This document shows positions 6,947 through 55,063 of a stretch of DNA of 64,000 bases, one piece after another (the stretch's first letter is position 1; each line of letters begins with the position of its first letter). The notes under the pieces are model-generated. The model was not told the DNA's origin, searched no databases, and saw nothing but the letters and a program-made list of their open reading frames with translations. Made by a program: the position numbers and the translations under genes. This DNA is from Poriferisphaera corsica (lineage in GTDB: Bacteria; Planctomycetota; Phycisphaerae; Phycisphaerales; Phycisphaeraceae), in NCBI RefSeq assembly GCF_007747445.1, contig NZ_CP036425.1, forward strand, positions 2,774,175-2,838,174. Reading direction: 5' to 3'.

Positions 6947-8584
6947 CTAATCCTCAAGCATTTTACGACGGAAGACTGCGGCGATTTCGCCGAGTGTGTA
7001 GACGGATGCGCAACCGGTGAGGCCGAGCAGGAACCAGAAAAGCGTGGCAGCAAGGGTGGTGTCAGAGCTAGTCAATTCGTTGGTGAGCCAAATGGAGCCA
7101 AGGATCATGGTAAAACCCATGACGCGAAGGAAGATGCTGAGCGCCCAGAGGGCGAAGTATTCTTCGGGTTTGGATTGCGATGACTTAGCGATTGCATTTT
7201 GTGCGGGCATCGAGATGGCGGAGACGGCATCTTGTTTTGATTCTGCTTGCTCTGCGGGTTCAGATATCGCTTGTTGCGCAGGTTGGATTGACTGTTTGGG
7301 CTGCGATAGATTATTAGCGATGGACGAAGGGCCGGTTTCAGCAGATGCCAACTCAGGCTCGATAGGTACTGACTGGATGGCGGTCATCGCTTGCTTGAGA
7401 TGAGCGGCGTTGGGATCTGACTCAACTTGATTGACAGGCGCGGCGATGCTCGATGGCTTATTGATGGTGGAAACGGTGACGACTTCACCAGCGGATTGCG
7501 GCTGATCCCCTGTATCGTCGATCTTGCCAGAACCATCGAGGGTGATGGAGATTCTCGGGGCGTTGGTTGAGGTTTTGCGCAAGATGAGTTTGTCTGATTC
7601 GTCTTGGGGCTGTTTCGTTGATTTTATTTTTTCTGATTCGGTGGATTCGTCTTCTACGGGCAAGTCGGCGTTAGTTTTTTTGCCTTTGAACAAATCAAGT
7701 TGATCGACATCGCTTGAGATCTGCTCATCAGTTTGATTGCTTGCAACTGTTTCGACGACTTCAGGTTCTAGTATTTGATTGTCTTTGCCTGCTATTTGTT
7801 CTTCTTGATCTGCCTGCTCGGTATTGTCTTGCTCGGAATTGCCTTCTGCTGATGTTTCGAGTGGCGACTCTTTTGTCTTCGCTGGCGATGTGATTTGCGT
7901 TCTTGAAGACGATTGAATGTCGCTTTGCTCTGGCTTCGCTTTGACTACAATCGGCTCATCAATTGCTTTTTCGGTTTGCTCGGGCTGATGAATCACTGTT
8001 TCTTCATTCGAAGATTCGGGGTTGGGATTGCTTTGAGCTGTTTCTTTGACCTGCGTTTGTTTGTCTTTGATCGCTATCGCGGGTGCTGAGGATTTCGCGT
8101 TGTTGGCTAACGGTTCAGAAGCAGTTGGCTCAACGACTGTTTTATCTGTGATTTTAGACTTACGCTTCGGTGTGGATTTAGCTTTAGGTAATTCCTTCGC
8201 CTGTTTTTCTTGCGTGTCATCTGAAGATACTGGCGGGTTTGCGGTGGCTTTGGCTTTACGTTTGTTTTTTTTAGCAGGTTTAGCTTTGGATGCTTTTGAT
8301 TTCGTCTCAGCCTTGACTGGTTCAGGAACTTCTACTTTTTTCTCTTCTGGCTTAGATTTTTTCACTGCAGGCGTAGCTTCACTGACCGAGGATTCACTTT
8401 TGACTACAGCATCCGTATTGGATTTGGTTGCTGCTGCTTTCTTCTTGGGCGGAACTTCATCGGAGGCAGCAGCGGGGACGTTTTGCATGGTATGGCACCG
8501 CGGGCACTTGACGGACTTGCCGTGCGTGTCGTTGGGGACTTTCATGATGGCGTCACATTTGTCACAGCGAAATCGAAGCGGCAT
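6947..8584 (-). CDS. MJ0042-type zinc-ribbon protein with long low-complexity region and C-terminal membrane segments
   Basis: The N-terminus carries a zinc ribbon, C7-x2-C10 ... C27-x2-C30 (FRCDKC, VKCPRC), followed by the VP typical of MJ0042-type fingers. About 400 residues of Lys/Glu/Ser/Pro/Gln-rich, probably disordered sequence follow. Two hydrophobic segments near the C-terminus (WALSIFLRVMGFTMILGSIW and LFWFLLGLTGCASVYTLG) predict membrane anchoring. I chose the ATG at 8584 because AAGG precedes it by 8 bases; the ATG at 8590 is an alternative. The ribbon spacing equals that of the three tandem paralogues at 22-25.8 kb, though the membrane part differs. Function unknown. Confidence 0.75.
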   Translation of the reverse strand: MPLRFRCDKCDAIMKVPNDTHGKSVKCPRCHTMQNVPAAASDEVPPKKKAAATKSNTDAVVKSESSVSEATPAVKKSKPEEKKVEVPEPVKAETKSKASKAKPAKKNKRKAKATANPPVSSDDTQEKQAKELPKAKSTPKRKSKITDKTVVEPTASEPLANNAKSSAPAIAIKDKQTQVKETAQSNPNPESSNEETVIHQPEQTEKAIDEPIVVKAKPEQSDIQSSSRTQITSPAKTKESPLETSAEGNSEQDNTEQADQEEQIAGKDNQILEPEVVETVASNQTDEQISSDVDQLDLFKGKKTNADLPVEDESTESEKIKSTKQPQDESDKLILRKTSTNAPRISITLDGSGKIDDTGDQPQSAGEVVTVSTINKPSSIAAPVNQVESDPNAAHLKQAMTAIQSVPIEPELASAETGPSSIANNLSQPKQSIQPAQQAISEPAEQAESKQDAVSAISMPAQNAIAKSSQSKPEEYFALWALSIFLRVMGFTMILGSIWLTNELTSSDTTLAATLFWFLLGLTGCASVYTLGEIAAVFRRKMLED

Positions 8585-50394: not shown

Positions 50395-50994
50395 TTAGAT
50401 GAGATTGAGAGACCAGAGGTCTGGTTTGGATGTTGAGACAGCGGAACAGCCTGCATTGATGATGGATTCGACGGTTTGAGCGGTTTTGATGAGTCCGCCG
50501 CCAAGGATGGGGATATCGAGTGAGAGAAAATCTGAGGCAACGTGGGCGGCGGCAATGCCCGGGAGGAGTTCGAGCGCATCAGGCTTGTTGTTTTTGACGA
50601 TGTGGATGCCGCGATCGAGTGCGCGAGAATCTTGCAAAAAGACGCGGACGATTGCGGCGAGGCCGAGGCGATGAGCCACATTGGTGAGTTGATGGCGCGT
50701 GGTGATGATGCCGGTGATACGAGGGAAGGCTGAAGTGAGATAGTTGAGTGCGGCTTCATCGCTGTTGAGTCCTGCGAGCAGGTCGATATTGAGGAAAAGC
50801 GGAATTTTTTTCGCGGCGGAGGTTTCGAATGGGGCGAGGATGCGGGCAAGGTCGGAGATTGCTCCGCCTTGTAGAAAGACGGCATCTGCGGCTTGGAGGA
50901 GATTGTCGGGGATGTCATTATCCCAAAGGACGGGAATGACAGGTTTACTAAAAGTGATTGCGTGGGGTTTTGATTGCGGTTTTTTGCGAGCCAT
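50395..50994 (-). CDS. glpP: Glycerol-3-phosphate-responsive antiterminator
   Basis: 199 residues of the GlpP family, a TIM-barrel RNA-binding regulator. Signatures: FLNIDLLAGLNSDEAALNYL (HiDLixGL type), GIITTRHQL, RVFLQDSRAL, DALELLPGI, IPILGGGLI and VSTSKPDLWSL. In Bacillus, GlpP with glycerol-3-phosphate prevents termination in glp leader RNAs. Here it is divergent from the HAD-glpD operon, whose leader holds an intrinsic terminator (51101-51129), so the regulatory pair is preserved. GlpP outside Firmicutes is uncommon in my knowledge. Confidence 0.88.
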   Translation of the reverse strand: MARKKPQSKPHAITFSKPVIPVLWDNDIPDNLLQAADAVFLQGGAISDLARILAPFETSAAKKIPLFLNIDLLAGLNSDEAALNYLTSAFPRITGIITTRHQLTNVAHRLGLAAIVRVFLQDSRALDRGIHIVKNNKPDALELLPGIAAAHVASDFLSLDIPILGGGLIKTAQTVESIINAGCSAVSTSKPDLWSLNLI

Positions 50995-51006: not shown

Positions 51007-51035
51007 TTGAATTTGGATGTTTAGAAGACTATCCT
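51007..51035 (+). promoter_or_regulatory. Candidate promoter of the HAD-glpD operon
   Basis: TTGAAT (51007-51012), a 17-base spacer, then TATCCT (51030-51035). Each hexamer matches the sigma-70 consensus at four of six positions. It would start transcription near 51042, about 60 bases before the leader terminator. Confidence 0.5.
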
Positions 51036-51100
51036 ATGTGTAGATAGATTAAATGCAACTGATTACTCAGATTCATTGAGCCATAGAGATATAGAGAAGG

Positions 51101-51129
51101 CTCCGCGGAATGTGATCCGTGGAGTTTTT
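51101..51129 (+). terminator. Leader terminator of the HAD-glpD operon (putative GlpP target)
   Basis: Stem CTCCGCGGA/TCCGTGGAG (one G-U pair) with a 6-base loop, followed by TTTTT. It lies between two divergent genes, so the only transcript it can stop is the plus-strand operon starting at 51196. That position fits a regulated attenuator and not an end-of-gene terminator. Confidence 0.8.
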
Positions 51130-51195
51130 GTTTGCGCGCACATATCGGGATGTGGCGTGATCTGGTAATTGAAAAAGAAACCGACGAGGTGAGAG

Positions 51196-52059
51196 TTGAA
51201 GATACAAGATGAGGTACAAGGTCGCTTGAAGGAAGTGAAGCACGTGATTCTGGATATGGACGGCACGATCTATAGGGGATCTGAGCTGTTTGATTTTACG
51301 TTGCCATTTCTTGAGGCAATGGGAGCGAATGGGATTGGGTATACGTTTTTGACGAATAATTGTTCACGTAGTGTTGAACAGTATCTGACGAAACTGGACA
51401 AGTTGGGGGTGCCGGCAAGTCGGGAAAATTTACTGACATCGATGCATTGCGCGGTGTTTTATTTGCAGAAACATATGCCGAATGCAAAGCGGGTGTATGT
51501 GCAGGGGACGAAGGGGCTGATGGATGATCTGGCTGCGGCGGGGTATGTGGTTGTGAATGCAGAGAATGATTCGGGTTGCGAGAAGCCTGATGTTGTGGTT
51601 GTTGGGTTTGATATGGGATTGGTTTACGAACGTTTGTGTCAGGCGTGTTGGTGGGTGAAGCAAGGCGTGCCTTACATCGCGACACACCCGGATGTGTTCT
51701 GCCCGACGGATGAGCCGACATGGCTGGTGGACTGCGGAGCTGTGACTAAGTGTGTTGAGGCGGCGACAGAAATTGCACCTGTCGCGGTGTTAGGTAAGCC
51801 GCATGCATACATGATCAAGCCTATTCTCGAAAAACATGGTTTGAGTGGGAATGAAGCGATCATGATTGGGGATCGGCTAGGAACGGATGTAGCGATGGGG
51901 ATTAGGGCTGGGACGCTGAGTTGCCTTGTATTAACGGGGGATTCGCAGGTTGAAGATATCGAAAAAATGGGCATTAAGCCGAGCATTGTCGCTGCGAGCT
52001 TGAAGGAATTGGGTGAAGCTATTTTAGACGCCAAGAAAAAGGAACAGTCCAATGCGTGA
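51196..52059 (+). CDS. HAD superfamily IIA phosphatase (NagD-like)
   Basis: 287 residues from TTG at 51196 with GAGG 6 bases upstream. HAD motif I is D20-M-D22-G-T (VILDMDGTIYRG), motif II is FLTNN, and motif III/IV is in GKPHAYMI and MIGDRLGTDVAMG. The cap is of IIA type (DMGLVYERLCQACWWV). The family includes phosphatases for p-nitrophenyl phosphate, phosphoglycolate and glycerol phosphate. Its stop overlaps the glpD start by 8 bases (ATGCGTGA), so the two are translationally coupled; a glycerol-phosphate substrate is a reasonable inference. Confidence 0.85.
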   Translation: MKIQDEVQGRLKEVKHVILDMDGTIYRGSELFDFTLPFLEAMGANGIGYTFLTNNCSRSVEQYLTKLDKLGVPASRENLLTSMHCAVFYLQKHMPNAKRVYVQGTKGLMDDLAAAGYVVVNAENDSGCEKPDVVVVGFDMGLVYERLCQACWWVKQGVPYIATHPDVFCPTDEPTWLVDCGAVTKCVEAATEIAPVAVLGKPHAYMIKPILEKHGLSGNEAIMIGDRLGTDVAMGIRAGTLSCLVLTGDSQVEDIEKMGIKPSIVAASLKELGEAILDAKKKEQSNA

Positions 52060-53563
52060 AAATATTGAAGTAAAACGCAAAGAAGCGATTAAAGCAGCAA
52101 GTCATGATGTGAAAGATTTGCTCGTAATAGGCGGCGGCATTGTTGGGGCTGGAGTAGCGCGTGATGCGGCTATGCGTGGATTAGATGTGGTTGTCGTTGA
52201 TAAGCATGATGTATCGTTTGGCACGTCGAGCCGATCAAGCCGATTATTGCATGGTGGTATTCGGTATTTACAACAGATGCGCGTCGGATTGGTGCGTGAA
52301 GCGAGTTTGGAAAAATGCGTGATCGGTGATATCGCTCCGCATTTAGCTCAAGGCTTGCGGTTCATTTATCCTGTTTACAAGCATCATCCGCAAAAGATGT
52401 GGCAGATGAAGATTGGCGTGAAGATTTACGATTTACTTTGCAGTGGTCGTAACTTTGGTAAATCCGAAAGTGCGAACGTTAAGGGAACACAGAAGTGGTT
52501 GCCTAAGATTAATACCGATCAACTGAGCGGATCCGTACGCTACTTTGATGGACTAACGAGCGATTCACGGCTGGTGATTGATTCACTTCGCAGTGCTGAA
52601 GCGTATGGTGCGAAGGTGATTAATTACATGCAGGTGGTGAATGCGAAACGTGCGAATGGTTTGTGGGAATGCAAGTTGATGGATCACATGACGGGGCAAT
52701 CTACGACTGTTAAAGCAAAGACAGTTGTTAATGCGACTGGGCCTTGGTCAGAACAATTCAAACAGAGCCAATTACATCTTCGTCCTTCGAAGGGCGTGCA
52801 TATCGTGGTTGATCGCGAAAAATTGCCTGTGGACGATGCGGTTGTGATCACCGAAGGGAAGCGGATCTTGTTTGTGATTCCATGGGGCGAGCGACTGATT
52901 CTTGGCACGACGGATACGGATTATCAGGATGATATTGAGAAGGTAAAAACGGATCAAGAAGATATTGATTACATTGTTGCTGCTGCGAATTCTGCATTCG
53001 ATAATCTTGGTTTGTCTCGTGATGATGTCATTAGCCATTGGGTTGGTTTGCGGCCATTGATTGCTGATCCTAACGGTACACCGTCAGATATTTCACGCAA
53101 GCACCAAATCTTGCAAACAAAAGAAGGTTGGATTGATATTGGTGGCGGTAAGCTGACGACGTATCGTTTAATGGCAGAGGAAACGGTCGACCTTGTCTTA
53201 AAGTACACAACGAAGAAAACTGAGAGATGCCGCACTGCACAGGAAAAACTGCTGGCTAAGGGGTTGGAAGATAAGTACACGGGTATTGTTCCATGTGCGG
53301 TAACACGTGAAGCGGTGAACTATTACTGTGATGCAGAATGGGCGAGAACATTAGCTGATGTGATGGTCCGCCGCTCTAGCTGGGTGCATTACTTCGCAGA
53401 CAACGATGCAATCGCCGAGAAGGTTTCAGTGTGGATGGCTGAAATACTTGGGTGGAATGAAGCGGAACGACAGATTCAGTTAGAGGCTTACCAAGAAACG
53501 AAGGAAGTTACGGGAAGCAATAAGCCAATCAATGACGATCAGAAAAGTGATCAAGCAGCATAA
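52052..53563 (+). CDS. glpD: Aerobic glycerol-3-phosphate dehydrogenase
   Basis: 503 residues. FAD-binding Rossmann motif GGGIVGAGVARDAAMRGLDV at the N-terminus, then SFGTSSRSSRLLHGGIRYLQQ, the GlpD signature, and FVIPWGERLILGTTDTDY. The C-terminal domain (about 390 on) is the usual GlpD cap. It oxidises glycerol-3-phosphate to dihydroxyacetone phosphate and passes electrons to quinone at the membrane. It overlaps the preceding HAD gene and is followed by a terminator. glpK and glpF are absent from the window. Confidence 0.94.
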   Translation: MRENIEVKRKEAIKAASHDVKDLLVIGGGIVGAGVARDAAMRGLDVVVVDKHDVSFGTSSRSSRLLHGGIRYLQQMRVGLVREASLEKCVIGDIAPHLAQGLRFIYPVYKHHPQKMWQMKIGVKIYDLLCSGRNFGKSESANVKGTQKWLPKINTDQLSGSVRYFDGLTSDSRLVIDSLRSAEAYGAKVINYMQVVNAKRANGLWECKLMDHMTGQSTTVKAKTVVNATGPWSEQFKQSQLHLRPSKGVHIVVDREKLPVDDAVVITEGKRILFVIPWGERLILGTTDTDYQDDIEKVKTDQEDIDYIVAAANSAFDNLGLSRDDVISHWVGLRPLIADPNGTPSDISRKHQILQTKEGWIDIGGGKLTTYRLMAEETVDLVLKYTTKKTERCRTAQEKLLAKGLEDKYTGIVPCAVTREAVNYYCDAEWARTLADVMVRRSSWVHYFADNDAIAEKVSVWMAEILGWNEAERQIQLEAYQETKEVTGSNKPINDDQKSDQAA

Positions 53564-53587: not shown

Positions 53588-53622
53588 GAAAGCTCTACAA
53601 AGTATTTTGCAGAGCTTTTTTA
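53588..53622 (+). terminator. Intrinsic terminator after glpD
   Basis: Stem AAAGCTCT/AGAGCTTT extended inward by CAAA/TTTG, followed by TTTTTT. Confidence 0.82.
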
Positions 53623-53710
53623 GTTTTTGATACACAAGCGTACGGGTAGCGAATAAGATCAATATGAAATTTTTGCTTTAGGTTGATAGAAATTGGGTGA
53701 AGGGAAACGT

Positions 53711-55063
53711 ATGCAGGAACCATTAAATCTAAAACTATCAGAAGCATTGACTGAAGCGAATGATACAAAATCACTGAGTATTGGTCATGGTGCGATTAGC
53801 GAGTTGCCACGAATTCTCAGACGCTATTTCCGCGGCCAACGGGCTGTGATTGTTGCTGATGAAAACACGTGGCGTGCGGCTGGTGATCGGGTACACAAGA
53901 TATTACTTGATGTTGGGCTTAGTGCACACCACGATGATCATGATCGATTGATTTTAGATTCGGAAGATCTCCATGCCGAAATGCGGCATGTAGAAGCAGT
54001 ACAATCTTATCTTGAAAGTTTGACGAATCATGTCGCGATTGCGGTTGGAGGCGGCACGATCAATGATCTTGTGAAATTGGCGGTGAGTCAGCTTGGACGG
54101 AGTTATGTATGTGTCGCTACGGCAGCATCGGTTGATGGATTTGGTGCCTATAGCGCCTCAATAGAAGTGGATGGGCATAAGCAAACGATCTATTGCCCTG
54201 CCCCGCTTGCGGTCGTTGCGGATCTGGATGTGATTTGTAGAGCACCAAAAGCATTGAACGCGGCGGGATATGGTGATTTGCTCGCAAAATATGTTTCTGG
54301 CATCGATTGGATCTTCGCAGATGCGGCTGGTGTGGAGGCGATTGATGAACATGTCTGGGGTTTGACACGTGATGAGATTGATCTGTGGACGGGGAAGCCG
54401 AAGGGCGTTAATGCGGGCGACTCTGAGCCGATTCGTAATCTATTCAACGGTTTGATTATGCAAGGCATTGCGATGGATGTCTATCAAGACACACGGCCGT
54501 GCTCAGGGGCTGAACACCAGTTTAGCCATAACTTAGACATGATCGGCCATCGATATCATGGCGAGATACCCTACCACGGCATGAAGGTGGGGATTGGCAG
54601 TATCGCTATGACCAAATTGCAGGAAAAAATGCTGGCTTTCGACCCCAGCGAATTGGATATTGACAAACGATTGGCTGACTGGATGGACAAGGAAACGGCA
54701 ACACAGCGTGGGCAGGACTTATTTGAGCAACCCAAGCTCAAAGAAGTAGTCGGAAAAGAGTATCCCAAGAAGCACATGAATGCGGCTGAGGCCAGAGTGA
54801 TGATTGATAAATTGATTACACATTGGCCTGAGACCGTTTTAAGGGCAAAGCCTTGGCATTTGGGTTCTGCAGAATACCAAGCCCGATTGAAGGCGGCAGG
54901 TTGCCCGATACATCCAGAAGAGATCGGCGTATCACTCGATTTCGTGAAATCACTTTATTTCAAGGCGTACCATACGCGTGCGCGGTTCACGGCGTTAGAT
55001 GTGGCGGTACTACTGGGGAAACTGCATGATTGGGTGGATGAGATATTTAATGAGCCGTGGTAA
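53711..55063 (+). CDS. Glycerol-1-phosphate dehydrogenase, EgsA/AraM family
   Basis: 450 residues from the ATG at 53711 (AGGG 6 bases upstream). The NAD(P) part has AVGGGTINDLVKLAV, and metal ligands are expected in GYGDLLAKYVSGIDW (Asp), GAEHQFSHNLDM (His) and PYHGMKVGIGSI (His). Bacterial AraM and archaeal EgsA interconvert dihydroxyacetone phosphate and sn-glycerol-1-phosphate. It lies just after glpD but beyond its terminator, so it is linked yet separately transcribed. It could also be another polyol-phosphate dehydrogenase of the same superfamily. Confidence 0.82.
   Translation: MQEPLNLKLSEALTEANDTKSLSIGHGAISELPRILRRYFRGQRAVIVADENTWRAAGDRVHKILLDVGLSAHHDDHDRLILDSEDLHAEMRHVEAVQSYLESLTNHVAIAVGGGTINDLVKLAVSQLGRSYVCVATAASVDGFGAYSASIEVDGHKQTIYCPAPLAVVADLDVICRAPKALNAAGYGDLLAKYVSGIDWIFADAAGVEAIDEHVWGLTRDEIDLWTGKPKGVNAGDSEPIRNLFNGLIMQGIAMDVYQDTRPCSGAEHQFSHNLDMIGHRYHGEIPYHGMKVGIGSIAMTKLQEKMLAFDPSELDIDKRLADWMDKETATQRGQDLFEQPKLKEVVGKEYPKKHMNAAEARVMIDKLITHWPETVLRAKPWHLGSAEYQARLKAAGCPIHPEEIGVSLDFVKSLYFKAYHTRARFTALDVAVLLGKLHDWVDEIFNEPW

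Follow-up and report, generated by a model that had tools for sequence, protein, structure and literature searches.

Among described systems, the one closest to the locus discussed here is that of Bacillus subtilis, where GlpP together with glycerol-3-phosphate (G3P) acts on the leaders of glpD, glpT, and glpFK, each of which is stated to contain a GlpP binding site and a terminator (PMC9604022, in the part consulted). LicT and HutP are likewise described as proteins acting on an RNA structure that competes with a terminator, with HutP binding clusters of NAG triplets (PMC7430163, in the part consulted). Among the titles and opening parts of abstracts returned by a literature search, no description of this element in planctomycetes was found. 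We examined a stretch of 64,000 nucleotides from the genome of Poriferisphaera corsica, hereafter the window, and conclude that the leader of its HAD-glpD operon is very probably a transcription antitermination switch of the GlpP type.

The preliminary description of this DNA had placed a leader terminator between a divergent glpP and an adjoining HAD-glpD operon, an arrangement that we can confirm (Table 1). The glpP gene starts with an ATG at position 50994 on the minus strand, and a gap of 201 bases separates it from the operon. Its product belongs to the GlpP family by PF04309, and the GlpP structure 3kts is matched by the profile of our alignment A1 (E 7.3e-50); no NCBIfam match to the protein was obtained at E 0.001. 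The HAD gene overlaps by 8 bases with the glpD-like gene, which represents the G3P catabolic target; its product reaches 333 bits against NF008899, for which the cut-off is 360. The HAD-glpD transcript probably ends at the terminator-like hairpin 3' of glpD. Because this hairpin intervenes, the neighboring gene resembling glycerol-1-phosphate dehydrogenase (G1PDH-like) is probably transcribed separately, and its inclusion in the controlled transcript of the window was ruled out. The complete genome, a single contig of 4,291,168 bases, contains one GlpP, a glpK elsewhere (746.9 bits; cut-off 590.35), and three GDPD matches.

TABLE 1. Features of the glpP and HAD-glpD locus, numbered from the first base of the window.
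Feature	Position	Strand	Basis or remark
glpP, G3P-responsive antiterminator protein, 199 aa	50395-50994	-	PF04309, E 3.8e-41, 140.8 bits (cut-off 27)
Promoter-like TTGAAT-N17-TATCCT	51007-51035	+	Sequence; TTGAAT 51007-51012, 17-base spacer, TATCCT 51030-51035
Antiterminator, 5' arm GAGCC	51078-51082	+	Pairs with 51099-51103; covariation
Antiterminator, loop AUAGAGAUAUAGAGAA containing AGAGA twice; putative site of recognition by GlpP	51083-51098	+	Almost invariant between phyla, unlike the stem
Antiterminator, 3' arm GGCTC	51099-51103	+	Shares CTC (51101-51103) with the terminator, where it forms the foot of the 5' arm
Intrinsic terminator, 9-bp stem, 6-base loop, U5	51101-51129	+	Stem 51101-51124; kept in ZRK32 and orthologous leaders
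HAD-IIA phosphatase, first operon gene	51196-52059	+	TTG start at 51196; Pfam Hydrolase_6/Hydrolase_like; TIGR01460, 110 bits (cut-off 100.15)
glpD-like FAD glycerol-3-phosphate dehydrogenase	52052-53563	+	PF01266, E 1.9e-50, and DAO_C
Terminator-like hairpin 3' of glpD	53588-53619	+	-12.8 kcal/mol, z -3.4; missed by simple scan
G1PDH-like gene beside glpD	53693-55063		ATG at 53705

The intrinsic terminator reported in the preliminary description was confirmed as stated by its sequence, its folding, and its conservation in the sister species ZRK32. It consists of CTCCGCGGA (51101-51109), the loop ATGTGA, TCCGTGGAG (51116-51124), and TTTTT (51125-51129), with a fold energy of -14.7 kcal/mol for the 9-bp hairpin and -17.4 kcal/mol when an extra pair is included. 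Of 200 shuffled versions of the 194-base leader, only 1 reaches an equally stable fold (z -2.5). A simple terminator scan of the window did not list this hairpin, probably because its stem, judged from the fold, can lengthen into the T run by A-U and G-U pairing. The terminator was also said to be able to act only on the operon leader, and this reading held: on the minus strand of the window the sequence 3' of the hairpin is CCTTCTCTAT and no terminator was listed there, on which grounds the hairpin was rejected as a terminator of glpP. Minus-strand terminators were listed for three other genomes (G145, G104, and G257). The TTGAAT-N17-TATCCT sequence noted earlier upstream of the terminator is indeed present, matching the consensus at 8 out of 12 positions by hand count; the scan, with a limit of 9, did not list it, and judged by consensus this would be a weak promoter. 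It is largely kept in ZRK32, which retains the -35 hexamer, the 17-base spacing, and five of the six bases of the -10 hexamer, with 10 of the 17 spacer bases being different. In the same gap of ZRK32 the hairpin block is near-identical and the sequence 3' of the terminator differs.

Comparison of the leaders revealed a second conserved hairpin, missed in the preliminary description, directly upstream of the terminator, i.e., GAGCC-AUAGAGAUAUAGAGAA-GGCUC in the window, GGGCU-AGAGAUAAAGAGAA-AGCCC in G104 (family f10), and GGGCC-AGAGAACAAAGAGAAA-GGCCC in G364 (family f16). Since the last three bases of its 3' arm (51101-51103) double as the foot of the terminator, the two hairpins are mutually exclusive. 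In stepwise folding, with an assumed start at 51042, the energy is -5.7 for the antiterminator alone and -17.4 for the terminator alone; the growing transcript folds into the antiterminator up to 51120, retains it partially at 51124, and holds only the terminator at 51132. This competing antiterminator with its GAGA...GAGA loop, conserved, covarying, and located beside glpP, is the strongest evidence for a switch and lends support to the GlpP-type antitermination that the preliminary description had suggested. RNA polymerase would start near 51042, as we infer from the promoter-like site, and the first structure to form in the RNA would be the hairpin 51078-51103 with the two AGAGA motifs in its loop. 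If this hairpin is left unheld, the terminator arm (51101-51124) would displace it, and transcription would stop at the U run before HAD-glpD. When G3P is plentiful, GlpP expressed from the divergent gene may, by analogy with Bacillus, bind to the GAGA...GAGA loop and lock the antiterminator, which would allow the polymerase to read into HAD-glpD.

Alignment A6, with 16 rows that had been fitted to the model, served for counting covariation in the antiterminator stem, because in some rows of the MAFFT alignments A2 and A4 the 3' arm is displaced by one base. In A6, 97.5% of the 80 stem cells are paired, and the covariation score is 0.235 vs. 0.121 in shuffles, with none out of 500 shuffles scoring as high; when the partners are slid, the score drops to 0-0.125. 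Two of the five covariation measures on A6 are unexceptional: changes on both sides occur in two of the five pairs, a level reached in 101 out of 500 shuffles, and the number of further pair types is equalled in 480 out of 500. A set of 32 leaders across phyla, chosen because they pair and with downstream genes checked for part of the set, contains 16 distinct stems around the GAGA-N-GAGA loop.

Within the class, strong GlpP matches (126-214 bits) were detected in 17 out of 397 genomes, of which 14 have the planctomycete type and 3 the canonical type. The family cut-off is also passed by G228, at 29.1 bits and only with neighbors in frame; weak PF04309 matches (about 19-23 bits), which cover about 45 profile positions, were rejected as GlpP. 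In the phylum sample the cut-off is passed only by the genome of the window itself (1 out of 392). Model R2 found the element beside glpP in all 14 genomes with the planctomycete type of GlpP, 13 of whose leaders had served for its training; the G281 leader and six extra copies lie outside the training set. In the other 383 genomes it gave two weak matches (E 0.040 and 0.049, in G262 and G288), which were rejected as elements, no arm-sharing, U-tailed terminator being seen in 81 bases. All 14 elements are located at the 5' end of glpP and face the divergent genes. In G127, G355, G257, and G101 the longest listed glpP frame overruns the element, as does the HAD frame in G157, implying that the true starts lie further in. 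The HAD gene was found in 13 of these 14 loci, the exception being G281, where one long frame scores as glpD. Model R1, trained on 6 leaders and run on 47 sources (613,036 bases), all chosen as glpP loci, yielded 16 matches at E up to 1, i.e., the 6 training leaders, 8 further glpP leaders, and 2 in L053, and none elsewhere in these sources. The preliminary description had made its reading depend on the hairpin being conserved near glpP homologues, and such conservation was found in 14 out of 14 planctomycete-type genomes and in other phyla as well.

The binding of the loop by GlpP is a step that we infer, and mutually exclusive hairpins are a design common to other antiterminators. Both points would fit an antitermination switch in which the loop is read by another factor, such as an ANTAR-type protein, a riboswitch-like ligand, or a leader peptide, with GlpP being a bystander. 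However, the R2 search of the 397 genomes was not anchored on glpP and still returned the genomes with planctomycete-type GlpP plus the two weak others, and in Rfam 15 scans of the window and five related loci the hairpin matched no family at gathering scores. We therefore consider a reader other than GlpP to be extremely improbable.

The element is also present at GlpP loci of Bacillota, Atribacterota, Aerophobetes, and Streptomyces. From a genome scan that gave 223 GlpP relatives, the best 80 loci were taken for a strict scan, designed after examples had been seen, which demanded two GAGA motifs, a stem of 4 or more, and an overlapping terminator. It detected the element in 26 of the 80 loci, 11 of them planctomycete and some of them weak matches in Clostridia, vs. 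1 match in 640 shuffled loci (8 x 80); the other 54 loci were without it. Matches of a looser scan included evident chance matches, such as that at window position 7536, and were left uncounted. The element precedes glpD-type genes (DAO and DAO_C) in Sporosarcina (L093, L077) and Lederbergia (L123), and oxidoreductases with DAO and BFD domains in Atribacteria (L070), Halanaerobiales (L087), and Aerophobetes (L078). In plasmid records of Cytobacillus spongiae, inspection by eye located it upstream of glpF and of glpD, and in those of Streptomyces clavuligerus downstream of glpP. At the locus of the Escherichia coli GlpP homologue, no two GAGA motifs with such spacing occur within 4 kb. In Lederbergia citrea (L123, 5754-5820), the Rfam Bacillaceae-1 RNA (RF01690) is situated just 3' of the element, before glpD.

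A tree built from 60 GlpP proteins unites the 17 planctomycete-type rows in one clade (support 100/100), the canonical planctomycete GlpP nest among Clostridia rows, and the rows of Cytobacillus and Streptomyces are long-branched, making their placement unsure. The planctomycete GlpP is 30% identical to the Cytobacillus protein. This second, canonical lineage occurs within the same class (L031, L032, and L033), and its loci show, by eye, a related GAGA hairpin between glpP and the next gene.

Several genomes deviate from this pattern. G751, which belongs to the same family as the window genome, has kept the HAD gene and the start of glpD, at which point the contig ends (G751:C81, L183). No GlpP was found in it by PF04309, and R2 gave only matches on other contigs (E 4.6 and 7.3) and no element at the operon. 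Beside the operon lies a glpP remnant, a 23-codon tail (L183 1543-1611; 61% identity; E 2.4e-6), and in the leader only a stretch resembling the end of the terminator can be recognized by eye. The glpP gene and the hairpin thus appear to have been lost together in G751, although a misjoin is possible since this is a single fragmented assembly of 150 contigs. G771, of the same family (its contig was seen as L053), carries glpP beside HAD-glpD with no element in the gap; its two copies occur before genes for exported proteins, at a distance of about 2.7-3.4 kb from the start of HAD, and L055, in the same GlpP subclade, also has a copy before exported-protein genes. No element was seen by eye in 204 bases of L058, and the second motif of L038 is altered to AGUGCAA.

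The alternative that the window contains a plain terminator or insulator between divergent genes, the GAGA hairpin being incidental and GlpP acting elsewhere or being inactive, can be weighed against this distribution. Terminators between genes are common, the promoter is weak, and only one copy of the element was found in the genome, all of which would suit such an insulator. However, the loop motif and the covarying stem recur across phyla at glpP loci, the element accompanies planctomycete-type GlpP in every one of the 14 genomes, and it is gone along with glpP in G751. Moreover, if a plain terminator ended 66 bases ahead of the operon's first gene, downstream of the promoter, the operon would be silenced. 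A mere insulator is thus very unlikely.

Six extra copies of the element were found, all within 5 of the 14 genomes. Two precede GDPD or G1PDH-like genes: that of G157 lies before a GDPD gene (PF03009, E 2.6e-21), and that of G145 before a G1PDH-like gene, followed by an MFS transporter that by eye resembles GlpT and, further along on the opposite strand, by a GDPD gene. The remaining four (G263:C52, L154; G364:C28, L155; G104:C51, L156; G104:C8, L159) are near and precede prepilin-like genes with an N_methyl motif, and one of the G104 clusters contains a weak glycoside hydrolase match below cut-off. For the copies before prepilin-like (N_methyl) or exported-protein clusters (L154, L155, L156, L159, L053, and L055), no obvious link with glycerol is apparent. 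In families f16 and f18, the first gene behind the leader is a GDPD in L041, L043, and L046, and, by eye, in L038. In loci such as L043, the leader is followed by a GDPD gene, a G1PDH-like gene, and a GlpT-like transporter, in that order. The grouping of GDPD, G1PDH-like, and GlpT-like genes suggests a module for the salvage of glycerol-1-phosphate (G1P) and G3P. In the window genome a single element was detected (150 out of 521 first-look candidates scored) and none at its own glpK; control of other glp operons (glpFK, glpTQ) by the same element, as in B. subtilis, was looked for there and not found, despite the presence of glpK and three GDPD genes, but the mechanism does not depend on it.

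These neighborhoods raise the question of whether the signal of the GlpP switch is not, or not only, sn-glycerol-3-phosphate but, for example, sn-glycerol-1-phosphate. A G1PDH-like gene adjoins the system in the window, in ZRK32, and in 8 out of 12 other planctomycete-type loci, and one follows the extra copy in G145. In addition, the GlpP profile weakly matches the geranylgeranylglyceryl phosphate synthase 6jo3 (E 2.5e-4), an enzyme that binds G1P. On the other hand, glpD, the classic target, lies within the fetched stretch in all 14 loci, the G1PDH-like gene of the window is set apart from the operon by a terminator-like hairpin, and, with 168.6 bits, it falls below the curated G1PDH cut-off of 413. 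A signal of this kind is, therefore, unlikely, and G3P remains our preferred ligand for the GlpP switch. A broader proposal is possible, albeit rather doubtful: the GAGA-N(few)-GAGA hairpin would be the ancestral GlpP recognition element, kept by two distant GlpP lineages, the regulon in Phycisphaerae would be wider (comprising G1P dehydrogenase, glycerophosphodiesterase, a GlpT-like transporter, HAD phosphatase, and prepilin-like export clusters), and GlpP may read both enantiomers of glycerol phosphate. If both are indeed read, the turnover of foreign lipids, including those of archaeal type, would be linked to expression.

Our results place protein-controlled transcription antitermination by GlpP in the Planctomycetota. 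They provide a compact, searchable RNA element of about 26 bases plus the terminator, with which GlpP regulons might be predicted in several phyla, and they point to a candidate loop for binding by GlpP. If the assembly of G751 is right, its loss of both regulator and hairpin shows how such a switch can be dismantled.

The system of the window resembles the GlpP/glpD system of B. subtilis, as far as the latter is described in the parts of PMC9604022 and PMC7430163 consulted, in its GlpP-family regulator, the intrinsic terminator in the glpD leader, and a target in glycerol catabolism. This likeness to B. subtilis is by description; the hairpin motif itself is seen in its Bacillota relatives Lederbergia and Sporosarcina and, by eye, in the glpF and glpD leaders of Cytobacillus. 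Unlike the B. subtilis system, the planctomycete GlpP forms its own fully supported clade and diverges from the HAD-glpD operon, and the genome of the window shows one copy only, with none at glpK. The ANTAR, BglG/LicT, and HutP proteins are unrelated to GlpP. Their systems, in so far as they are covered by the partly consulted sources, resemble the present one in that a protein acts on an RNA structure competing with a terminator, whereas here a single hairpin carries the motif, GAGA-N-GAGA, in its loop. By the features tested in its sequence, the system of the window appears to belong to the GlpP antitermination systems, as a deep-branching planctomycete version of a known kind of switch.
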